Shown here: positions 4,569 through 14,706 of the stretch, one piece after another | Numbering within the stretch: the stretch's first letter is position 1 | Layout: each line of letters begins with the position of its first letter | Assembly: GCF_002287075.1 (NCBI RefSeq) | Contig: NZ_NSKE01000002.1 | Span: forward strand, 248,001 to 312,000 | DNA length: 64,000 nucleotides | Source of the DNA: Fodinibius salipaludis | Lineage (GTDB): Bacteria; Bacteroidota; Rhodothermia; Balneolales; Balneolaceae | Direction of reading: 5' to 3' | Translations under genes and position numbers: made by a program | The notes under the pieces: generated by a model | What the model saw: only the letters and a program-made list of their open reading frames with translations | What the model was told of the DNA's origin: nothing | Database searches by the model: none

Positions 4569-5582
4569 TTAATTCTGATTAATAGTCACTGTATTTCCCT
4601 GACCTGACTGACGTACTTGCGCGGAGTTGTTACTTCCTCGCTGAGAAATATCAACATTGTTAAAACTACCACGCTGTACTGTCTTGATTGTATTTGATGC
4701 ACCTGCCTGTTGCGATCTGAACAAATTGTAACTTCCGACCTGAAGGACTTCGTTTTCGGTTCGGTTAAAAGTGCCAAAAACGTCTCGTGAATAAATATCC
4801 TGTCTTACCCTATTATATGATCCATTTTGTGTTACAGACAATTGTGCATTATATGCATTAAAAACATTCTGCATGGTCGAATTATAATTCCCAATGGAGC
4901 GAACTATAAAATCTGAATAATATGTATTGTATAGAGCTTGATTCGTATAATTAAAATCTCCAACATGGGTTACTAATCGTCTATTTCCAAAACTGCCCAC
5001 AACTTGATCATCCAGCTCATTATTTTGTCCAAGCTCGTTATAACTTAGGTTATTGTTTACTTGAGCAATTCTCGGTGATGACTGCCGGCTATTCTGCTGT
5101 ATGAAATTAAAATCCATTGCCGTCACTCCTTGGTTATTTACTATCCAGCTAACACCAATTTTCTTAGCGATTTCAGGGAGATCAAAAAATAGATCCTCAG
5201 CTAACTGGTCTTGGTCAACCAGCTCGGATTCCTTATCACTTTTTTCAGGCTTTTTAAGCTTAATCTTTTCAACCTTTATACCCGAAGTATCAATATTCCT
5301 CTGAATATTCGGCTTTACAATTTTAGAATAACGATATAAGGGCACCGTCGGTTTACCAGTATAATCTAAATCGCTTAGTGTGCCATCATCCGGAATGTCT
5401 ATATTAGGAGAAAGGAAATAAGAATTCGGGGGTGCTATCTGCTTCGATTCAGGAGCAGGAGGTGGTGAAGAAATGGTATCAATAAGCCGTTGCAAATCAT
5501 GTTTCAAGAAAAATACCAGTGCTACCAGTATAACAAGAGAAACAAACCTATAGAACCAATATTTTTGACGTGAATTTTTCAT
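4569..5582 (-). CDS. membrane-anchored curlin-repeat protein
   Basis: Protein of 337 residues. Residues 10-27 form a hydrophobic helix with flanking positive charges and no clear signal-peptidase site, so it looks like a signal anchor. Residues 35-150 are a proline- and charge-rich linker. From about 165 to the end come curlin-like repeats, each near 22 residues with Q/N-G-S/N-x-N spacing (for example QNGSYNRVRQDI, QRGSFNNVDISQ, QSGQGNTVTINQN at the C-terminus). The final TVTINQN resembles the last strand of CsgA/CsgB. A role as amyloid nucleator or anchor is inferred. It is the last gene of the minus-strand curli locus, about 57 bases after the lipoprotein gene. How an anchored curlin would reach the outer surface is unclear. 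Confidence 0.75.
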   Translation of the reverse strand: MKNSRQKYWFYRFVSLVILVALVFFLKHDLQRLIDTISSPPPAPESKQIAPPNSYFLSPNIDIPDDGTLSDLDYTGKPTVPLYRYSKIVKPNIQRNIDTSGIKVEKIKLKKPEKSDKESELVDQDQLAEDLFFDLPEIAKKIGVSWIVNNQGVTAMDFNFIQQNSRQSSPRIAQVNNNLSYNELGQNNELDDQVVGSFGNRRLVTHVGDFNYTNQALYNTYYSDFIVRSIGNYNSTMQNVFNAYNAQLSVTQNGSYNRVRQDIYSRDVFGTFNRTENEVLQVGSYNLFRSQQAGASNTIKTVQRGSFNNVDISQRGSNNSAQVRQSGQGNTVTINQN

Positions 5583-5639
5583 ATCTGAGAAATATCATAG
5601 CCACTCCTTATCAAACTATAACAACGAGCATTTAGTTAC

Positions 5640-6278
5640 TTAGTCTGCGTATTTACCGCTTACCACCACAGAATCTATTGTGTTATGGTGAACATATTTT
5701 GAAAACTCAGCAATATTTTTTTCGCCGGCCGCAAGAGCCGTATCTCCTTCTTCCTTGGAAAAGGTTTCTCCTGAGGTGTAAATCTTAAAATAAACTTCGT
5801 ATCTGTCTATTTCGATATCATCACTTCTGTTTGTCACTTCGTACTCCACATCCGCAAATGTACTGTCACTACCTGTGTTATCATTGTTAACCCTTCTTTC
5901 GTTCCAGGCACTTACTTCGGCCGTTAAACTTTTTTCCCCACTTCCATTTTTGGGATCAAGGTAAATCTGTGCCGTCGCTGTTTTACCTTCACGAACGTTC
6001 ACGCTTACTGTTGTAGACTCAAATTCGGATTTACTGGCTGTTATATTATAGTTACCCGTAGTAACTTCATTAAGGCTAAAACTACCGTCCTCATTGGTGG
6101 CTATAGAGTTTGTGGCCGGAGAAGTAGTAATATTTGCCCCACCAATTCCCTCCTCGGTTTCACTGTTTAACACCTGTCCATCGATATTACCAAAGGTTTC
6201 GGGAGATATCGTTTCCTTGGAACAACCGACAAGTAAGGAAAAGCAGATAACAAATAGCAGACACTTATTTATGTACAT
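5640..6278 (-). CDS. lipoprotein with carboxypeptidase-regulatory-like domain, in curli locus
   Basis: The start at 6278 gives MYINKCLLFVICFSLLVGC, a short lipoprotein leader with the lipobox LVGC; an in-frame ATG at 6317 would add 13 residues and overlap the upstream gene by eight bases. After the cysteine comes a domain of about 75 residues (GQVLNSETEEGIGGANITTSP...GNYNITASKSEFESTTVSVNV) matching the carboxypeptidase-regulatory/CnaB-like beta-sandwich, then an FxLYD-like domain (VEYEVTNRSDDIEIDRYEVYFKIY). It contains no curlin repeats and does not look like CsgC or CsgH. Position between a CsgB-like and an anchored curlin gene suggests an outer- or inner-membrane accessory for fibre assembly or attachment; this is inference. 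Confidence 0.75.
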   Translation of the reverse strand: MYINKCLLFVICFSLLVGCSKETISPETFGNIDGQVLNSETEEGIGGANITTSPATNSIATNEDGSFSLNEVTTGNYNITASKSEFESTTVSVNVREGKTATAQIYLDPKNGSGEKSLTAEVSAWNERRVNNDNTGSDSTFADVEYEVTNRSDDIEIDRYEVYFKIYTSGETFSKEEGDTALAAGEKNIAEFSKYVHHNTIDSVVVSGKYAD

Positions 6279-6309
6279 TTCTAGAATATTAAATTTCACA
6301 AATTTATAG

Positions 6310-6900
6310 TTATTCAATTATAAGCTGTTGGTTTCGTGAACTGGACTCAACTTTAAAAACAGGCATTGACCCTTTTTGAAAGAAAAACTCAGATCCAGAG
6401 GCTGTAGGTACTTGTTCAGCTCTAATATTTGCTCCATTACCTAACATATTGATAGATGCTCCCATCGAATTACCGTCCTGGGTAAAATTAAGGGTATTAC
6501 TATTTCCTTGAACATTCACAACAGAAATTAACCTATCCCCCTCTTGTGTAAGATCGGTTATATTACCACTGACATGATTCCCGGGACTTCCAATCAATAT
6601 TTTGCCGATATTACTATTTCCATTTTGAGTCAGACTCGAAACATTGTTACTACCATATTGCGTTATTGAAGCATAATTTCCTTCAGCTGATACTCCACCA
6701 AACAAAGCACCCGTCGAACCTGAAAGTGCAAAGTTGTGGAATAGGCCAAAACTTTTTAAGGCTTCATTATGCTCGATTCCGGGATTCTCAACCTGTTCGA
6801 TTGATACCGGACTTCTTTCCTTACTATCTTGAGCTTGTGCTCCCAAAAAACCAGCCAAGCAAAATACAATTGTGATAATTAGTGTTTTCTTTAACTTCAT
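6310..6900 (-). CDS. minor curlin / CsgB-like protein
   Basis: Exported protein of 196 residues: Sec signal peptide MKLKKTLIITIVFCLAGFLGAQAQ with cleavage after AQA, a 45-residue N-terminal segment, then four or five curlin-type repeats (ITQYGSNNVSSLTQNGNSNIG, DLTQEGDRLISVVNVQGNSN, LNFTQDGNSMGASINMLGNG). The number of repeats is lower and the sequence more irregular than in the five downstream-paralogue array, and the C-terminus (FKVESSSRNQQLIIE) departs from the repeat. This is how CsgB nucleators differ from CsgA, so I suggest a nucleator role without being able to prove it. It lies 63 bases after csgG on the same strand. Confidence 0.72.
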   Translation of the reverse strand: MKLKKTLIITIVFCLAGFLGAQAQDSKERSPVSIEQVENPGIEHNEALKSFGLFHNFALSGSTGALFGGVSAEGNYASITQYGSNNVSSLTQNGNSNIGKILIGSPGNHVSGNITDLTQEGDRLISVVNVQGNSNTLNFTQDGNSMGASINMLGNGANIRAEQVPTASGSEFFFQKGSMPVFKVESSSRNQQLIIE

Positions 6901-6963
6901 AGCAAACCTCTTTTTGGTTTATGAATATTCTTTCTCAATACGAGAATCATATTTTATGATAAT

Positions 6964-8340
6964 TTATTGCAAAAACTTTGGTGAATAACTTACACCAGTA
7001 CTTACGTTCCACATCTGATCATGTATCGACCCCTTACTTACTCCATCAAGTCCATCCCGAATCAAATAACGATAGTTAAATCCTACATGGACTCCAATTC
7101 GTTCTGATATCCGGTAATCTAATCCCGCTTCAGCCGAAACCGTTGGAAAATATCCCCTACTCGAAAATTCGGGCTTACTGTCATAAGTCATATTTCCCAC
7201 GCCTATTCCAGCAAAAGGAGAAAGCTTTGAATTAGGTGTAAAGTGTCCATTTACCGTTAAATCAAAAGCGGTATAAGGTCTTGAAAACACCTGTTGTGCT
7301 CCAATTTTCGACCGTTCTACACTTCCTTTTAACGAAAGCTGTCGACTTAAAAAGTATTCAGCCTTTATAGCTCCACCAATCTCATCGTTCGCTGCAGAAT
7401 AACTACCTATATGACTACCAAACAAAAAGTTTGCAGAAATATCTAAACCCGATCGCAACTTTTCGTTATCATACAAACCAAAGTAGTTTGTTTTTTCACG
7501 CTCTTCCCACTCCTTAATACTCTTATATTTTTTTTCATACTCATTAAAAGCAGTAGTGTCTCGAGCACTCCAAATCCCTTGATCTTCCCCTCTGATGATA
7601 AGCATTTTCACCGCCTCATCGATCGCTTCGGTAACAGCCATTAGGGGCGGTTCGTTATAAGTAAATCCAGCTTCCGTCTCCAATAGCCGATTAGTATCCA
7701 CATAACGGAAGACACCGCTTTGCAGCTCCTGCGAAATTATTGATTTGGTTGTATGAACCGTTTCAAGCACCCGCCCGGTTTTTGTAGACACCGCTCGCAA
7801 ATAGATCGTTACCTGGTCTTTTCGAAACTGTCCGGAAGCACCGGTTCCAAGCAAGCGTGCCCCACCTCCACCCGTAATAACATTGGTATCATATCCGATG
7901 ATGCCCCCTTCTAATAACACTCCGGCAAATAACAACGGCGAAAGTCGACCGCTTTGGTTATTCTGCTGGCGTGTTTTTTGGATAATTTGGCGCTCATTCA
8001 ACAAGTTCGATACCCCTTCTCGCTCAATGGGTGTAAACCAACCGGAGTCTTCCATTGATTTAATAAGTATGGAAGTAGCTCCCTGTGTAACAGCCGTAGA
8101 CCAACTTGCAACCCTCTCAGAAGGCTTATATTGGCCGGTTTGATCGCGAAATCTATAAACGGCCGCAACTACTTTGCTTTGAGGTTCCGGCATCTCTTTC
8201 AGACTTTCGTGAACCTTGCTGTTAATTCCCGGTTTTACCCTTTCAGTCTCCAATGGTTGCAGTGTAGAACTACATGCACCTAAAGTCATCGTGATAAATA
8301 ATAACAGTATACACGCTGTAACAGATTTATCTTGCATCAA
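6964..8340 (-). CDS. csgG: CsgG curli secretion channel with extra C-terminal beta-barrel-like domain
   Basis: Outer-membrane lipoprotein forming the nonameric pore that exports curlin subunits. The leader ends in a lipobox LGACSS. Residues 50-265 follow E. coli CsgG closely: VAAVYRFRDQTGQYKP, GATSILIKSMEDSGWF, PIEREGVSNLLNERQII, LLEGGIIGYDTNV, GGGGARLLG, SGVFRYVDTNRLLETEAG, GIWSARD. Length is 458 residues against 277 in E. coli; the extra 160 residues (about 295-458) show alternating amphipathic strands (GLDISANFLFGSHIG, AEYFLSRQLSLKGSVERSK, AGLDYRISERIGVHVGFNYRY) like a small outer-membrane barrel. The constriction region reads KPSERVASWSTAV where E. coli has KPYPASNFSTAV, so the tyrosine and asparagine lining the E. 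coli pore are not conserved and a tryptophan sits at the phenylalanine position. It lies between the curlin array and the CsgB-like gene. Confidence 0.93.
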   Translation of the reverse strand: MMQDKSVTACILLLFITMTLGACSSTLQPLETERVKPGINSKVHESLKEMPEPQSKVVAAVYRFRDQTGQYKPSERVASWSTAVTQGATSILIKSMEDSGWFTPIEREGVSNLLNERQIIQKTRQQNNQSGRLSPLLFAGVLLEGGIIGYDTNVITGGGGARLLGTGASGQFRKDQVTIYLRAVSTKTGRVLETVHTTKSIISQELQSGVFRYVDTNRLLETEAGFTYNEPPLMAVTEAIDEAVKMLIIRGEDQGIWSARDTTAFNEYEKKYKSIKEWEEREKTNYFGLYDNEKLRSGLDISANFLFGSHIGSYSAANDEIGGAIKAEYFLSRQLSLKGSVERSKIGAQQVFSRPYTAFDLTVNGHFTPNSKLSPFAGIGVGNMTYDSKPEFSSRGYFPTVSAEAGLDYRISERIGVHVGFNYRYLIRDGLDGVSKGSIHDQMWNVSTGVSYSPKFLQ

Positions 8341-8388
8341 TTGTGCAATCTATGTTTTAGAAATATAATTTCTTGTAGTGTAGAAAAC

Positions 8389-8453
8389 TGGTAGAGAAGA
8401 TTCAATCTCCACCAATTATTAAGTTAAGTTGGAATATTTGAAGCTGATTCCAA
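8389..8453 (-). promoter_or_regulatory. two hairpins between last curlin gene and csgG
   Basis: TGGTAGAGA (8389-8397) pairs with TCTCCACCA (8406-8414) with one mismatch, and TTGGAAT (8429-8435) pairs perfectly with ATTCCAA (8447-8453). The second lies 16 bases after the stop codon of the upstream curlin gene. No T-tract follows on the minus strand. Part of a series of spacer hairpins in this locus. Confidence 0.55.
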
Positions 8454-8468
8454 AATTATCTAAATCAT

Positions 8469-9362
8469 TTAATTCTGTGTAACATTTGTTGTGTTATTCA
8501 TACCCTTTTGATTGACCGTAGCATTATTATTGTCAGAATGTTGATAGATATTAGCCTCGCTGTTTTGTGATGAAATATTAATACCAACGCCCTGATTAAT
8601 TATTGCGTTATTATTGTCTCCATTTTGCAATATATATCCAGCGTTATCAAGAGCAAAACCACCATTAATACCTTGGTTTATTCTCACACCGTCGCCATTT
8701 CCATTATTGTCACCATTTTGAATAACAGTGGCTGTATTACCTTCAGCAGTTCCTGCTCCAGAACCGGGTCCGGCAAGTGATAATTTTGATCCCTGCAAAA
8801 TAGTTGTAGATGAATTATTGTTGCCACTCTGAATTATCGTAGCAGTATTATCTAAGGAAGATGATTGGGCTTGTACCCCTTGATAGATTATACCTGTATT
8901 GCCTACTCCATTTTGAGTCATATTTGCACTCCCTCCTTCGGTACTACCTGCAAGACCCTGGCGAATTTGAGCGGTATTTCCACTCTTTCTTTGCTCCACG
9001 GAAGCATTTGTAGATACAGCAGTACCACCGTTATATACCCCTTGCAGAATATCTGCATAACCATCCGTTCCCGACTGGTCTATAGAACTTGAAGAATTTA
9101 GAGCAGTACCGGCATCACCCTGAATAATAAAGGCTTCAAAAGCACCATCTTGCATGATCGTAGCTTCGTTATCTTCTGCTACTGCTACAGGGCTCGACGC
9201 ATATTTTTGCGTCCCTTGGTATACGGTTGCCTTATTATCCCCAACTTGGGTAACGGTGGCTTCGTTTTCATCCCCAACCTGTTCCGTTTCAGCATCATTC
9301 TGTGCAAAGCCCATCGTAGTTGAAAACAATACTAAAGCGGTAATGACAAATAACTTCTTCAT
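8469..9362 (-). CDS. curlin subunit (CsgA-like), copy 5 in transcription order
   Basis: Extracellular amyloid subunit of 297 residues. I start at ATG 9362 (MKKLFVITALVLFSTTMGFAQ), which gives a clean Sec signal peptide; a longer frame to 9446 only adds an implausible leader. After AQ the protein is almost wholly curlin repeats of 20-25 residues with Q-x-G-x-x-N and a second Q: EQVGDENEATVTQVGDNKATVYQ, IQNGDNNGNGDGVRINQ, ending GMNNTTNVTQN. About eleven repeats. Its signal peptide and repeat linkers are more divergent than those of the four preceding paralogues (long serine-rich inserts such as TALNSSSSIDQ), so it may serve a distinct role, for example capping or modulating the fibre. Immediately precedes csgG. 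Confidence 0.85.
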   Translation of the reverse strand: MKKLFVITALVLFSTTMGFAQNDAETEQVGDENEATVTQVGDNKATVYQGTQKYASSPVAVAEDNEATIMQDGAFEAFIIQGDAGTALNSSSSIDQSGTDGYADILQGVYNGGTAVSTNASVEQRKSGNTAQIRQGLAGSTEGGSANMTQNGVGNTGIIYQGVQAQSSSLDNTATIIQSGNNNSSTTILQGSKLSLAGPGSGAGTAEGNTATVIQNGDNNGNGDGVRINQGINGGFALDNAGYILQNGDNNNAIINQGVGINISSQNSEANIYQHSDNNNATVNQKGMNNTTNVTQN

Positions 9363-9412
9363 AATATATTGCCTAATATTCAAATTGATGACTAAATAAA
9401 GTTTTAAAGAAA

Positions 9413-9443
9413 ACCGTGAGAGGAGTCTTCCATCCTCTCCGGT
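9413..9443 (-). promoter_or_regulatory. spacer hairpin between curlin genes
   Basis: ACCGTGAGAGGA (9413-9424) pairs with TCCTCTCCGGT (9433-9443) with one bulged base. It lies 18 bases after the stop of the upstream curlin gene (9462) and has no T-run, so it resembles a 3'-stabilising or processing hairpin more than a terminator. Confidence 0.6.
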
Positions 9444-9461
9444 CATAGTGTACTTGAAATT

Positions 9462-10328
9462 TTATGTTCCTCCTCCTACACCAGATTGACTTACCGTAGA
9501 GGAGTTGCCACTCCCAGTTTGGGTAACACCAGCACTGTGGCCGCTACCGGTTTGCGCTACCGTAGAAGAATTATTGTGGACTGACTGACTTACACTTGCA
9601 GTATTCCACAATCCGGTTTGATTAATCGTAGAGTTATGATCTGTTCCGCTTTGGTTAGAAATTGCTGTATCCCAAGCACCGTGAGAATCAATAATAGAAG
9701 TATTACCTTCTCCATTTTGAGAAATATCCGCATTTAGACGGGCTCCAACCTGCTCAACATCAGCAGTATTTATAGCTTGTTGAGGGCTACCAGTCTGTTT
9801 TACATCTGCTTTATTAAAAGCACCTATCTGAGTAATATCAGCATCAGCGTGATGTTCTTGCCAAACTCCAGCTTTTTGGAATGCACCAATCTGATTTAAG
9901 AACAGGTCATTTTTATCCGAAGAAAAGACTCCAGTACCGTTCTTTTGATATGCGTTTCCAGAGTAATCACCATAAGCACCAAGGACATTTCCATTTCCAG
10001 ATTGATTTACAGTCAGCTCATTATATCCGGCTTGTTTTGAACGACTTTCATTCTCAGAACCCGTCTGTGTTACAAAGGCCTCAGAATTAGCCTGATTCTG
10101 ATCTACAAAAGCAAAGTTTTCACTTCCGGCTTGCTGAGTGATTTCCGTCAAATGACCAGTTCCAAAATGGGAATCCTGATCAACAATAGCATTACTTTCG
10201 GAACCGGTTTGTGTCACCGTTGCATTATGACTATTACCATCCTGTTCCACTGTAGCATCGTTATTCTGTGCAAACGCCATAGAATTGGCAAATACCAGAA
10301 CAAATAAAAGCGAGGTTAATTTTTTCAT
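9462..10328 (-). CDS. curlin subunit (CsgA-like), copy 4
   Basis: Exported amyloid subunit of 288 residues with signal peptide MKKLTSLLFVLVFANSMAFAQ and about twelve curlin repeats (VEQDGNSHNATVTQTGSES, VDQNQANSEAFVTQTGSENE, ITQIGAFNKADVKQTGSPQ, VTQTGSGNSSTVSQSGVGGGT). It ends in GVGGGT instead of the usual TxTQN, a feature shared with copy 3. The repeats carry the Gln and Asn ladder needed for the beta-solenoid. It is fourth in a five-gene tandem array that shares an almost identical signal-peptide coding stretch, implying duplication. Export would be through CsgG encoded downstream. Confidence 0.87.
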   Translation of the reverse strand: MKKLTSLLFVLVFANSMAFAQNNDATVEQDGNSHNATVTQTGSESNAIVDQDSHFGTGHLTEITQQAGSENFAFVDQNQANSEAFVTQTGSENESRSKQAGYNELTVNQSGNGNVLGAYGDYSGNAYQKNGTGVFSSDKNDLFLNQIGAFQKAGVWQEHHADADITQIGAFNKADVKQTGSPQQAINTADVEQVGARLNADISQNGEGNTSIIDSHGAWDTAISNQSGTDHNSTINQTGLWNTASVSQSVHNNSSTVAQTGSGHSAGVTQTGSGNSSTVSQSGVGGGT

Positions 10329-10370
10329 AAGTAGGTCTTCTTTTGTTGAAAATTAGATCAAATGGATAAA

Positions 10371-10404
10371 TTAGCTCCCAGGATTTAAGCTACCTGGGAA
10401 CTAA
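10371..10404 (-). promoter_or_regulatory. spacer hairpin between curlin genes
   Basis: TTAGCTCCCAGG (10371-10382) pairs with CCTGGGAACTAA (10393-10404), eleven of twelve positions complementary. It begins 15 bases after the stop codon of the curlin gene ending at 10419 and is not followed by a T-tract. Confidence 0.62.
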
Positions 10405-10418
10405 ATGGAGTCAATTCT

Positions 10419-11255
10419 TTACGAGCCTCCTCCACTGGACTGCATTACATCAGCAGTATTATTATTTCCTGTCTGGGTTACTGAGCTGGAATGACCATTG
10501 CCAAATTGTTCTTGGTTTGACCAATTACCCATACCATCTTGTGAAACGGTAGCATTAAGATTACGACCATCTCCCAGTTGCCAGGCATTATTATCTTCAC
10601 CAAGCTGAATAACTTCTCCATTATTACTGTGGCTTGATCCATGTCCTGTAAAGTCTTGGGAAGCATAATTACCAAGACCATCTTGATCGATGAGCATAAC
10701 ATCTCCCATGTATCCGTTATTAGAACCATTTAGATCTTGCATGGCTTCATTGGATTCGCCATTCTGATACACTTCCCCATGGTTATGAGCACCACTCGCG
10801 TCTTGATCTACCGTGTTGGAAGTACCATACTGTTCAGCAGTCAAACTTAAGGTATACCCGCTACCAGTAGACTGGGTTAGGATATTTTCTGATCCAGATT
10901 GAAGACCCCATACATCTTGCCCTCCATTATAACCGGGAGCATATTGCGTTTGGGTAGCTTCATTATCAGTTCCATCCTGCTCGATATAGGCAGAGTTCAG
11001 ACCATTACCTCCACCCCCAGTTTGGCTTTGATCAACTGTGGCGACGTTGCCGGAACCCATCTGTATAACATCAGATTCCTGTGCCCCGCTATTATCTGTA
11101 AACTGAACTACATCAGCTTCATTTGTAGAACCCACTTGTTCCACATATGAATCTTGATTATCTCCTTCTTGATCCACTGTCGCATCGTTGTTCTGTGCAA
11201 ATGCCATAGAACTGGCAAACACCAAAACAAAGAGTAATGTGGTTAATTTTTTCAT
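10419..11255 (-). CDS. curlin subunit (CsgA-like), copy 3
   Basis: Exported amyloid subunit of 278 residues: signal peptide MKKLTTLLFVLVFASSMAFAQ followed by about ten repeats (VDQEGDNQDSYVEQVGSTNEADV, IEQDGTDNEATQTQYAPGY, MLIDQDGLGNYASQDFTGHG, VSQDGMGNWSNQEQFGNGH). Repeats are richer in Asp, Tyr and Trp than in copy 4, and the C-terminus is ADVMQSSGGGS. The first ten mature residues NNDATVDQEG match the other copies. The differences between paralogues sit in the loops between strands, so mixed fibres with varied surface chemistry are possible (inference). Confidence 0.87.
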   Translation of the reverse strand: MKKLTTLLFVLVFASSMAFAQNNDATVDQEGDNQDSYVEQVGSTNEADVVQFTDNSGAQESDVIQMGSGNVATVDQSQTGGGGNGLNSAYIEQDGTDNEATQTQYAPGYNGGQDVWGLQSGSENILTQSTGSGYTLSLTAEQYGTSNTVDQDASGAHNHGEVYQNGESNEAMQDLNGSNNGYMGDVMLIDQDGLGNYASQDFTGHGSSHSNNGEVIQLGEDNNAWQLGDGRNLNATVSQDGMGNWSNQEQFGNGHSSSVTQTGNNNTADVMQSSGGGS

Positions 11256-11283
11256 AATATTATTTTTTTTGATTTGTACCCAT

Positions 11284-11369
11284 AAACTGAGAGAATTTCT
11301 CCCAGTTTTAATTAGATAGAATAATTTTTAGTGATTATCGGGGAGAACAACTCTCCCCGTAAAATCACT
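11284..11369 (-). promoter_or_regulatory. strong spacer hairpin plus second inverted repeat between curlin genes
   Basis: CGGGGAGA (11339-11346) pairs perfectly with TCTCCCCG (11352-11359) around the loop ACAAC, and outer arms AGTGATTA / ATCACT extend it to 11330-11369. It starts 14 bases after the stop of the curlin gene ending at 11383. A second imperfect repeat, AAACTGAGAGAA / TTCTCCCAGTTT near 11284-11308, lies before the next start codon. Confidence 0.65.
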
Positions 11370-11382
11370 AATGAAAACTATT

Positions 11383-12249
11383 TTAGTTTTGAATTACAGT
11401 GGCACTGTTAGCACTACCATTTTGGGTGATACCAGCAGTGTTATCCATACCAAGTTGAGAAACTGCTGCAGTGTTACCGACAGCTCCGTAAGCACCATCT
11501 TGGTCAACATTCAGAGTATGGCCTCCCTGGCCTCCCTGAAGAGCATAACTGCCGCTTCCGGACAGACCGTTAACGGAGTGCCCATCACCGAGCTGGTTAA
11601 TATCTGCACTGGAACCACTTGTTCCATTTTGCTCCAGATAGATATCGGAATCACCGTCTTGTCTAACGTAAGCATCATTTGCACCTGCATCTTGCAGAAT
11701 CTGTGCAAAAGCCCCATCGCGCTGTTTGATATTAACCAAGTCAGAGCCATACTGCTCAATACGCAGTTCACTTCCCAGACGTCGTACTCCTGTGGATCCC
11801 AGCTCTAATGTACCTTGCTGTTCAACATAGAGCTCGCTGTTCTCTTGATAGGCTTTAGTGCCTTCACCACCAAGCCCGAGGACTGAATGTTCTTCGCCGT
11901 AATCTTGGTTGATTTCGGCAATAGATCCATCAACTTGCTCAAGAGCAACATAGTCTCGACCTGTTTGATTAATTGTTGCTTCGCTACCATTACTCTGGTC
12001 TAAAAGCACATTATTGGTATAAGCACTGGAACCATACGGACTGGCTCCGGGATTATTCCCGTGCTGGGTGATATCGGCATCATTATCTCCCTGAACCTGT
12101 GTTATAGTTGCATTATTAGAATTGTTTCCATCTTGGTCGACCATAGCATCGTTACTGCTTCCAGTCTGGGAAACAGACGCATCGTGCTGCGCAAATGCCA
12201 TGGAACTGGCAAACACCAGCATAAATAAAAGTGTTGTTAGCTTCTTCAT
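11383..12249 (-). CDS. curlin subunit (CsgA-like), copy 2
   Basis: Exported amyloid subunit of 288 residues. Signal peptide MKKLTTLLFMLVFASSMAFAQ, then about eleven repeats such as VSQTGSSNDAMVDQDGNNSN, ITQHGNNPGASPYGSSAY, YVRQDGDSDIYLEQNGTSGS, ending ITQNGSANSATVIQN, the canonical final strand. Several repeats contain Glu/Asp-rich stretches (DQDYGEEHS, EQQGTLELGS). Second in the five-gene array; 133 bases separate it from copy 3 and contain a strong hairpin. I see no frame break. Confidence 0.87.
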   Translation of the reverse strand: MKKLTTLLFMLVFASSMAFAQHDASVSQTGSSNDAMVDQDGNNSNNATITQVQGDNDADITQHGNNPGASPYGSSAYTNNVLLDQSNGSEATINQTGRDYVALEQVDGSIAEINQDYGEEHSVLGLGGEGTKAYQENSELYVEQQGTLELGSTGVRRLGSELRIEQYGSDLVNIKQRDGAFAQILQDAGANDAYVRQDGDSDIYLEQNGTSGSSADINQLGDGHSVNGLSGSGSYALQGGQGGHTLNVDQDGAYGAVGNTAAVSQLGMDNTAGITQNGSANSATVIQN

Positions 12250-12297
12250 ACTAATTATGTGGTTTTTTATTTGAATAACTTTAATTAGAAGTGATTA

Positions 12298-12326
12298 ATA
12301 GGAAAGGGAACACATCCCTTTCCTAT
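12298..12326 (-). promoter_or_regulatory. perfect 12-bp spacer hairpin between curlin genes
   Basis: ATAGGAAAGGGA (12298-12309) is fully complementary to TCCCTTTCCTAT (12315-12326) around the loop ACACA. It sits 19 bases after the stop codon of the first curlin gene; on the transcribed strand it is followed by TAATCAC, with no T-tract. A stable element of this type between the first and second genes could protect or separate the upstream message. Confidence 0.7.
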
Positions 12327-12345
12327 AACCACCTATCAGATTTTA

Positions 12346-13161
12346 TTAGTTCTGAGTAATTGTGGCTGAGTTTGAACTTCCAACTTGGCTAACAGCTGCA
12401 GTATTACCTGATGAGCTTTGCATAATATCTGCCATGTTAGAACTACCATCCTGTAATACAGAACGTACAATGTTGGAACTACCACTTTGATCAATCATCA
12501 GCTCGTTACCGTCACCAAGCTGAACGAGACCTTGTCCACCTTCTTGACCAGGTACTCCACCGGACTGTACGCTTTGCGTACCAGCGGACTGTCCCCAGCC
12601 ATTTTGAACAATATCCATAGTGTTATTCACACCATCTTGGTAAGCACCCGTACCTGTTCCGGTACCAACAGCATGATCGCCGTCATCAGTTTGCAGGATG
12701 TCAATAATGTTACCAGCTGCACCAGTAGAGCGCTGTCCTTCAATATCAACGAAGTTGCCCACTCCCTCTTGCGTTATGTAAGCTTGGTTGCTTTGACCAC
12801 TTTGGTCAACATCATGCACAGTATTATTATTACCGATTTGATCAACATCAATTAGACCATTGGTACTTGGCCCATGTTTACCTTGTTCTGCATGTTGTTT
12901 CACAAGGTTTCCATCGCCTATTTGTTCGACATCGTAAAGATTACCAGCACCATATTGATCCAGCAATGCCACATCATTTTGGTCACCGGCCTGATTAACA
13001 ACAGCCTCATTCATGGCTGAAACACCATTTGCTGCCTGATACTCCTGATCAATACTGGCACTATTGCCTGAACCATTTTGATCTACCGTCGCATCATTCT
13101 GTGCAAATGCCATAGAACTGGCAAATACCAGAACAAAAACTAACGTAGTTAACTTCTTCAT
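12346..13161 (-). CDS. curlin subunit (CsgA-like), copy 1
   Basis: First curlin of the array, 271 residues. Signal peptide MKKLTTLVFVLVFASSMAFAQ, then about ten repeats with the CsgA pattern (VDQNGSGNSASIDQ, VEQIGDGNLVKQHAEQ, VDQSGQSNQAYITQEGVGN, IDQSGSSNIVRSVLQ) and the end VSQVGSSNSATITQN, which matches the C-terminal strand of E. coli CsgA in spacing. It is the copy closest to the structured 327-base leader and has the most regular repeats, so it is the best candidate for the major subunit. Export would need CsgG, with CsgE and CsgF encoded just upstream. Confidence 0.88.
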   Translation of the reverse strand: MKKLTTLVFVLVFASSMAFAQNDATVDQNGSGNSASIDQEYQAANGVSAMNEAVVNQAGDQNDVALLDQYGAGNLYDVEQIGDGNLVKQHAEQGKHGPSTNGLIDVDQIGNNNTVHDVDQSGQSNQAYITQEGVGNFVDIEGQRSTGAAGNIIDILQTDDGDHAVGTGTGTGAYQDGVNNTMDIVQNGWGQSAGTQSVQSGGVPGQEGGQGLVQLGDGNELMIDQSGSSNIVRSVLQDGSSNMADIMQSSSGNTAAVSQVGSSNSATITQN

Positions 13162-13207
13162 AATAGGTTACCCCTATGTTATTTTTATTCAGATTAATTG
13201 AATTAAC

Positions 13208-13266
13208 AAGCCAACTTATAATTATTCCGATCACCGGAATATGATTCGGTGGCTTATTCCCGAATC
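13208..13266 (-). promoter_or_regulatory. set of mutually exclusive hairpins in curlin leader
   Basis: On the minus strand GATTCGG (13260-13266) pairs with CCGAATC (13243-13249); CACCGAAT pairs instead with ATTCCGGTG; ATTCCG (13235-13240) pairs instead with CGGAAT (13224-13229); and AAGCCA (13250-13255) pairs with TGGCTT (13208-13213). Each helix shares bases with the next, as in a switching element. It lies 47-105 bases before the start codon of the first curlin gene. Confidence 0.5.
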
Positions 13267-13285
13267 TCATAGGAGCGAACAGTAC

Positions 13286-13419
13286 GGAAGGCAAATCCCA
13301 TTGAAGAAGCGATCACAAATTGTTATATTAGGATCTTTTAATGTTCTTCAATGGGCGGCATCAGAGTTCCACACTTCTCCAAACCTTTCGGTTGGAGAAG
13401 ATCCCTGGTGCTGCCTTCC
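13286..13419 (-). ncRNA. candidate structured leader RNA, three-way junction, upstream of curlin array
   Basis: In the 327-base gap between csgF and the curlin array the sequence folds into nested helices. Outer P1: GGAAGGCA (minus strand, 13412-13419) with TGCCTTCC (13286-13293). P2: GCACCAG with CTGATGC (13405-13411 and 13358-13364, one mismatch), topped by CTTCTCCAACC-GAAA-GGTTTGGAGAAG (13374-13400), a stem with one bulge and a GNRA tetraloop. P3: CCCATTGAAGAA with TTCTTCAATGGG (13344-13355 and 13297-13308), twelve perfect pairs around a 35-base loop. The GAAA loop appears only on the minus strand, the strand of the curli genes. I could not match it to a known riboswitch, SRP, 6S or tmRNA consensus. 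It may be a leader controlling the curlin genes or an independent RNA. Confidence 0.55.
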
Positions 13420-13488
13420 TTATTTTATTCAGCTCCTAAATGCTTCGTGCAATTCCATTACAATTCTCTTTGTTTTAACAATTTTACC

Positions 13489-13953
13489 TTAATTTCCTCC
13501 AAAGTTACTGCCGGAAAATCCCGAAGGAATCGTAATACTTGTAGACTCACCGGATAATATATTCTGGATATTGACCTGTACCCCATCGGGACCAGGATTT
13601 ATACTGATGTTAAACTCTCCAAATTCATAGGTGCTCTGTTCACTCAGATCAATGCCCCCTTCACCACCAAAGCGATCACCAATAATTTGACGCGTCAATT
13701 GTGAGAGCACCTGGCGTTGCAGTGATTGTTCAAAGTTTGCTAATGGATCTCTTCTAAATCCGGATCCACCTTCTTGGAACTTGTTTTGCTGATTCGCAGA
13801 ATTAAGCATCCACCCATAATTGGCCGGGCTACCCCCAAAAGCAGGATTCATCGGTCGATACACAAAATCCTGCGCTTGTGTTATTTGTGGAAGAAATAAT
13901 GCAATTCCCACGAGCAATGATAAAACACCAATTATAAATTTACACTTTCTCAT
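13489..13953 (-). CDS. csgF: CsgF curli assembly factor
   Basis: Periplasmic/outer-surface protein that inserts its N-terminus into the CsgG pore and couples export to nucleation. A signal peptide (MRKCKFIIGVLSLLVGIALF...TQAQ) is followed by the diagnostic CsgF start FVYRPMNPAFGGSPAN and WMLNSANQQNKF, which line the CsgG channel in E. coli (there FRNPNFGGNPNN and LLNSAQAQN). A helical linker (ANFEQSLQRQVLSQLTRQI) and a C-terminal beta domain (FNISINPGPDGVQVNIQN, GESTSITIP) complete the family layout; 154 residues is close to the usual 138. It begins four bases after the CsgE gene ends, so the two are almost certainly cotranscribed. Confidence 0.93.
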   Translation of the reverse strand: MRKCKFIIGVLSLLVGIALFLPQITQAQDFVYRPMNPAFGGSPANYGWMLNSANQQNKFQEGGSGFRRDPLANFEQSLQRQVLSQLTRQIIGDRFGGEGGIDLSEQSTYEFGEFNISINPGPDGVQVNIQNILSGESTSITIPSGFSGSNFGGN

Positions 13954-13956
13954 TGA

Positions 13957-14706
13957 TTAATACCCCGCAAATTCATTTTGAATGGATGCTTGCTGAACTA
14001 ATCTTTTTTTGCACAATGAAACAGCGCGTTTAGCTGCTTTTTCTGTTTTATAATAACGCGGCTCCAATCGATTCCTAAAGACCAGTTGATTATCAATTTC
14101 GATCTGTATCATCGTTCCGCGCGAAGGTGTTGGCTGTTCTGAAACCGTAATAGTAAAATTACTGATGTCCTTGGGATCTTCCCAGTGCTTATAAAAGATG
14201 GCATAAAAATCCCGTCCCATTTTACTTCGTGTTTCATCTAACACCATCCCCCCAAATCCCAATCCTTCATAACTATCTACCCCAGATCCTTCTTTCCTTT
14301 TCTTCTTTTTCTCTACTAACTGATTAAAGGTTTCCCGGAACTTTTTAAGCTTCTTGTCATCCTTCTTTTCCTTCTCTTCACGCTCAAATTTTTTGTTCAT
14401 TGCTAACACCCTGTTAACATCATCTGTTGTTACAGTAAGGCGCAAATCTTGGACAATATGGGTGGGGATCTCCAGTTCTTGACCGGGATAGATGAAGTGG
14501 GGATTCTTAATCTTGTCTGCATTTGCTTTATAGATATCAATCCACCAAATAAAATTGCCGAATTCTGCAGCAATTTCGATCAATGTATCACCCGGCTCTA
14601 CCTCATACGTTAATGGTTCCGGATCATAATCTGTTGTTCCGAGAAGGAAAAAACAAGACAGGATAAATATTATACAAGTAGCGAACCTCATGATCCATTG
14701 ACCCAT
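13957..14706 (-). CDS. csgE: LysM-CsgE fusion protein (curli export gate factor)
   Basis: Protein of 249 residues against 129 for E. coli CsgE. After a signal peptide (start at 14706 or at the ATG at 14691) residues 33-81 form a LysM domain (TYEVEPGDTLIEIAAEFGNF, then IYKANADKIKN and IYPGQELEIP), which binds peptidoglycan in known proteins. Residues 105-160 are a Lys/Glu-rich linker likely to be helical. Residues 170-245 are a CsgE domain: GMVLDETRSKMGRDFYAIFYKHWEDP, ITVSEQPTPSRGTMIQIEI, VFRNRLEPRYYKTEKAAKRAV, matching E. coli TVSSIGHDFYRAFSDKW and its NERPSARWGSWITI block. CsgE caps the periplasmic vestibule of CsgG and delivers curlins, so the LysM part may tether the cap to the cell wall (inference). 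First gene of the locus, four bases before csgF. Confidence 0.88.
   Translation of the reverse strand: MGQWIMRFATCIIFILSCFFLLGTTDYDPEPLTYEVEPGDTLIEIAAEFGNFIWWIDIYKANADKIKNPHFIYPGQELEIPTHIVQDLRLTVTTDDVNRVLAMNKKFEREEKEKKDDKKLKKFRETFNQLVEKKKKRKEGSGVDSYEGLGFGGMVLDETRSKMGRDFYAIFYKHWEDPKDISNFTITVSEQPTPSRGTMIQIEIDNQLVFRNRLEPRYYKTEKAAKRAVSLCKKRLVQQASIQNEFAGY

Follow-up and report, generated by a model that had tools for sequence, protein, structure and literature searches.

How curli amyloid production is regulated in the Bacteroidota and their relatives is an open question, because CsgD, the activator of curli in enterobacteria, is mostly missing from their curli systems (PMC3521004); the survey concerned found the Bacteroidetes to be without CsgD apart from Spirosoma (PMC3521004). 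The curli locus of Fodinibius salipaludis lies within a stretch of 64,000 nucleotides of contig NZ_NSKE01000002.1 (the window). An earlier note on the sequence of the window had pointed to a gene-free gap of 327 bases ahead of a curlin array, and proposed that it holds a structured leader RNA of 134 bases composed of three helices, P1, P2 and P3. The gap is indeed present (13162-13488), with csgF on one side and the first curlin gene on the other; the array has five curlin genes, and they and csgF are encoded on the minus strand. The present analysis addresses what this element is, where else it occurs and how it may act.

Genomic context and anatomy of the proposed leader

The five curlin genes of the array (window 4602-13161) precede csgG on the minus strand, and additional curlin-repeat matches are present on this strand near 4602-4703 and 6610-6678. 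A second curlin gene of the same genome (L098, G000:C3:124495-124884) is without the leader element. The window also contains a strong 21-bp inverted repeat at 2091-2150 (95% complementary, 18-nt loop, AGTGAAATGGCAAAGGTGAAA).

All three helices were found as the earlier note had described them, with P1 formed by 8 perfect base pairs, P3 by 12, and the GAAA-capped hairpin of P2 by 11 bp and a bulge. The 134-nt segment has a minimum free energy (MFE) of -53.4 kcal/mol on the minus strand and -52.5 on the plus strand, compared with -31 +/- 3.7 for dinucleotide shuffles (z about -5.9), and none of 200 shuffles folded equally well. The element is larger than this segment. On the strand that encodes curlin (minus), P1-P3 are surrounded by an outer stem, P0, and the overall order is P0[P1-P2-P3]-P4-P5-RBS-ATG, with two hairpins (P4 and P5) and then the ribosome-binding site (RBS) of the curlin gene following P0 (Table 1).

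Table 1. Positions of the components of the element and of adjoining genes in the window
Feature	Position	Strand	Remarks
First curlin gene (PF07012)	12346-13161	-	271 aa; leader directly 5' of gene
csgF (PF10614)	13489-13953	-	Gene 5' of element
csgE-like gene (LysM + PF10627)	13957-14706	-	Upstream of csgF
csgG	about 7564-8196	-	Downstream of element
Whole structured element P0-P3	13268-13440	-	Covariance model R1 match G000:C12:261268-261440, E 1.3e-43, itself a training sequence
P0 5' strand TAGGAGCTGAATAA	about 13425-13438	-	Contains conserved GGAG
P0 3' strand CTGTTCGCTCCTA	13270-13282	-	Contains CUCC, complementary to curlin RBS
P1 5' strand GGAAGGCA	13412-13419	-	GGC has alternative pairing in P2
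P1 3' strand TGCCTTCC	13286-13293	-	Pairs with 13412-13419
P2 conserved core	13351-13418	-	Covariance model R3 match
P2b hairpin, GAAA loop in own genome	13374-13402	-	11 bp and bulge
P3	13297-13355	-	12-bp stem CCCATTGAAGAA/TTCTTCAATGGG, 13297-13308 with 13344-13355; AU-rich loop
P4 hairpin GATTCGG...CCGAATC	13243-13266	-	Covaries in Fodinibius
P5 hairpin ATTCCGGTGATCGGAAT	13224-13240	-	Downstream of P4
SD-like AGGGG of first curlin	13171-13175	-	CATAGGGG (13171-13178) could form 8 bp with CTCCTATG of the P0 3' strand
Conserved AATTGCACGAAG	13443-13454	-	Just 5' of P0

Comparison of the available copies indicated that the GGC of P1 may instead extend P2, which is the conserved core of the element (consensus rGGCAaCgCC...CUUAC-loop-GUAAG...CRACGcYGCC). 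P2 comprises a long helix, P2a, with a conserved C.A position, an apical hairpin, P2b, and a purine-rich bulge or small hairpin, P2c; the A.C positions of the core are fixed, and its bulge is often able to form the small hairpin. The GAAA tetraloop is not kept in relatives, whose P3 loops approximate AAUAUAAC. Across the copies, P0 forms a long helix that covaries in its interior and usually displays GGAG at its 5' start and CUCC at its 3' end; the copy in G064 is without the GGAG. Outside Fodinibius, P4 often takes the form UCUCAC...GUGAG. A Shine-Dalgarno (SD)-like site is located near and 5' of the ATG in the leaders compared, and, with the exception of the first unit of tandem leaders, about 110-200 nt separate the end of the core from the curlin ATG.

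An AATTG(C/A)AC..AA block (13443-13454 on the minus strand), positioned about 15 nt 5' of P0, is common to copies with unrelated upstream genes and is possibly a promoter -7 element. In two leaders the purine-rich bulge of the P2 core has a sequence exactly in common with the curlin ribosome-binding/start region of the same leader, namely GGTGACCAACCA in G071b (L171) and GACCAACCA in G082 (L162), as if one mimicked the other.

Conservation and covariation

Two near relatives carry the element at 86-87% identity, while three further genomes of the genus harbour a diverged version in the same csgF-curlin gap. The resulting alignment of six Fodinibius sequences brought out P0 around P1-P3, and the hairpins P4 and P5 beyond it. 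Across P0-P3, 94.3% of cells in this alignment are paired, as opposed to at most 57.9% when slid, 7 pairs have changed on both sides, and the covariation score was reached by none of 500 shuffles. Every helix covaries, as exemplified by GCA/UGC to GCG/CGC in P2 and CAUUG/CAAUG to CGUUG/CAACG in P3. The P2 core behaves similarly over 24 distinct rows, being 84.3% paired versus at most 52.6% when slid, with double changes in 13 of its 18 pairs. Fold z-scores ranged from -3.7 to -8.4 in all 15 copies tested, and conservation at the sequence level is seen in the P2 core, the bulge and the P3 loop. The earlier note had named an absence of covariation or conservation among relatives as evidence against its leader; covariation and conservation were both found, and there is strong support for a structured RNA that is conserved, shows compensatory changes and is linked to the curlin gene.

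A leader peptide or hidden open reading frame within P0-P2 was rejected upon inspection by eye, as indels between G000 and G010 and a stop in G024 disrupt the reading frame, and substitutions show no bias towards third positions. The hammerhead-like CUGAUG of the F. salipaludis copy was likewise discarded, given that it is not kept in relatives.

Distribution and linkage to curlin genes

Covariance model R1, which covers P0-P3, was searched against 129 Balneolales genomes and added two copies: one between csgG and curlin (G009), the other in a different genus (G024), where it precedes a solitary curlin gene that is not near csgF. Within Fodinibius, the element is present in all eight curlin-bearing genomes and in none of the four curlin-free ones; this tally includes the copy of G007, which is weak by model R2 (E 0.007) yet situated at the right place. 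Unfiltered R2 searches of curlin loci of other genera and families returned matches before curlins in G038, G064, G017, G007 (two) and contig C3 of G024. Model R3, a 60-nt core model derived from 15 copies whose loops were trimmed and N-padded by hand for alignment, retrieved 22 copies at E<0.01 in 18 of the 129 genomes, representing three families.

Placement just before a curlin gene, in the orientation of that gene, holds for 21 of the 22 copies, the remaining copy (G071a) lying after csgG and being cut by the contig end. Seven of the 22 were outside the training set of the model, and for six of these a curlin gene downstream was confirmed by Pfam, which also identified curlin downstream of G124 (E 0.049), of G024a and of the Salinibacteraceae match. 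The gene 5' of the element is variable (csgF, csgG, csgE, another curlin or none), and the 3' gene is constantly curlin. A function as csgF 3'-UTR was discarded because csgF does not adjoin the element in G009, G007, G024 and other genera. F. salsisoli possesses three copies before three curlin genes, one each, and a tandem pair precedes a single curlin gene in G024:C3 (L101, about 2561-2926) and in G124:C19 (L164), the second unit of the latter being recognised by eye only.

No further credible copy was detected in a sample of 395 genomes across the phylum, a large search of the kind that uses stricter filters, and among 80 csgF loci with organism names matches were confined to Balneolales and one Salinibacteraceae contig. 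The Salinibacteraceae match (L189:6250-6560, R3 E 3e-4) lies between csgG and curlin, and its outer stem CCGUGGUCUG/CAGACCACGG extends into the curlin SD GGAGGA; this locus is possibly a distant relative outside Balneolales. The element is absent from some of the Balneolales curlin loci searched, e.g. G051, G062 and G063. Weak R1/R2 matches in G000:C6, five R3 matches at E 0.01-0.3 (G041, G129, G061, G102 and G014) and phylum-level matches in G445 and G195 were taken as chance, since no curlin gene follows them.

The inverted repeats at the ends of the element might suggest mobile DNA of the MITE or REP type, or a fold arising by chance. A genome-wide search of F. salipaludis, however, returned a single copy, homologues occur only before curlin genes and the helices carry compensatory changes, on the strength of which this explanation is exceedingly improbable.

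Functional strand and possible pairing with the ribosome-binding site

In 19 of 24 copies the MFE is lower for the opposite strand, which often folds as well or better because the fixed A.C positions of P2a become G.U there. In a strand-neutral fold the P2 core has 80 A.C versus 19 G.U, with a balance elsewhere; the six-species P0-P3 alignment gives 18 G.U versus 2 A.C under a structure that was itself derived from the sense strand. Wobble pairs therefore do not discriminate between the strands, and the sense (curlin) strand is favoured by orientation and by the RBS. Unpaired bases are no richer in A than the flanking leader in the copies compared.

In many copies the antisense strand folds no worse than the sense strand, and the fold is compact and stand-alone in appearance, both of which would be consistent with a separate small RNA, sense or antisense, encoded 5' of the curlin genes and acting in trans. 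Such an RNA is nevertheless improbable in light of the fixed distance and orientation of the element relative to the curlin ATG and SD, the presence of a separate copy for each of three curlin genes in F. salsisoli, the absence, at E<0.01, of copies unaccompanied by a curlin gene and, in the window, the absence of a terminator of its own at both ends. A cis leader is favoured over a stand-alone small RNA because the element always stands before a curlin gene, whatever lies 5'.

In G000, G009 and G007, 8-9 bp can form between the 3' strand of P0 and the RBS of the curlin gene. Among 23 leaders, cognate pairing of P0 with the RBS is only slightly better than non-cognate pairing (permutation p about 0.04), and an anti-SD switch is therefore weak order-wide.

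Known RNA families

The earlier note knew of no consensus that its candidate fitted, and the Rfam scan agrees with this: Rfam 15 gave no match at the gathering score in the window, only a chance snoU49 (E 0.34) on the 351-nt region and nothing over the element in nine homologous loci. No description of curli leader RNAs in Balneolaceae or Fodinibius was found in the literature searched. We accordingly regard the element as a previously uncatalogued RNA motif of a known kind, a structured cis leader, with its function deduced from context. An intrinsic terminator was rejected, as a simple consensus scan of the 64-kb window identified nothing resembling a terminator within the element or beside it at either end; a U-run after P0 is present solely in G024a.

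Metabolite riboswitches usually control several gene types. A riboswitch of this sort, which might sense c-di-GMP or another biofilm signal, would be a special case of the leader model, and the two overlap, for which reason the likelihoods expressed here are not meant to sum to one. The reading is an unlikely one in our judgement, considering that no Rfam riboswitch class matches, that curlin genes alone follow the element and that the window offers no terminator platform, although the leader position, the conserved core beside a multi-branch junction and the tandem copies speak for it, as do the tandem glycine/c-di-GMP-I riboswitches that have been linked in print to csgG and other curlin-related genes (PMC9481103).

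Proposed role of the element

The element most likely controls the amount of fibre protein made. We consider the chances evenly balanced that it acts in cis, as a structured leader of the curlin mRNAs of Balneolales, and sets curlin output, likeliest by gating of the RBS. An action on translation or stability of the curlin mRNA is favoured because terminator-like sites are lacking in and next to the element in the window. The element and the curlin gene would share a transcript, which would either begin immediately 5' of P0 or be that of the csg operon, and curlin output would be set after transcription begins. With the CUCC-bearing 3' strand of P0 paired to its own GGAG strand, the RBS would be open, while opening of P0 would allow the CUCC strand to pair with the downstream GGAG/AGGGG site and thereby close it, the conserved P2 core acting as the putative sensor of a ligand or protein; gene content suggests no ligand or partner. 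Gating of the RBS is the preferred detail and a modestly supported one, given the possible 8-9 bp pairing in several Fodinibius copies and the slight cognate preference. Of the whole proposal, the switching carries the least certainty, and its best support is confined to Fodinibius.

The main rival to RBS gating is a role in mRNA stability or processing, whereby a rigid, perhaps RNase-cut structure at the 5' end of the curlin segment would protect this segment without any sensing, allowing a single operon to yield more of the structural subunit than of the csgE/F/G machinery. The very stable fold, the lack of a terminator in the window, the position between machinery and curlin genes and the exclusive link to an abundant structural protein are in keeping with such a stabiliser. 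The P2 core, the bulge and the P3 loop are nevertheless conserved in their very sequence, which, together with the tandem copies, exceeds what simple protection needs; the element also occurs before a lone curlin gene without an upstream csg gene (G024a), and we hold this role to be somewhat unlikely.

To return to the gated leader, the element stays with the subunit genes when operons are rearranged and duplicates along with them, which makes it a concrete and testable candidate regulator, possibly one that defines a new class of orphan RNA switch. More specifically, and more tentatively, it may be an RNA switch of a new class, responsive to a ligand or protein and employed singly or in tandem, that is dedicated to gating the curli amyloid subunit in Balneolales via the SD-mimic/anti-SD P0 stem (GGAG/CUCC).

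Comparison with known systems

The tandem glycine/c-di-GMP-I riboswitches are the closest published case, being likewise RNA leaders linked to curli genes, and tandem copies resembling tandem regulatory RNAs and riboswitches are also encountered here; the present element differs from them in sequence and structure, has no Rfam match to those classes and is located before curlin subunit genes (PMC9481103). Orphan riboswitch candidates and structured non-coding RNA motifs, as described, e.g., in PMC2864571, PMC8632094 and PMC11109978, similarly combine a covarying 5' leader fold with one gene family, whereas the element has no Rfam family and, as far as searched, is restricted to Balneolales and a possible Salinibacteraceae relative. 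The autoregulatory leaders of ribosomal proteins are also exclusive to one gene product family; curlin, in contrast, is a secreted amyloid. In E. coli, trans-acting small RNAs such as OmrA and OmrB control curli through the csgD mRNA. Curli control is post-transcriptional there, in trans on csgD, and would be so here, by a cis element preceding the subunit genes themselves.
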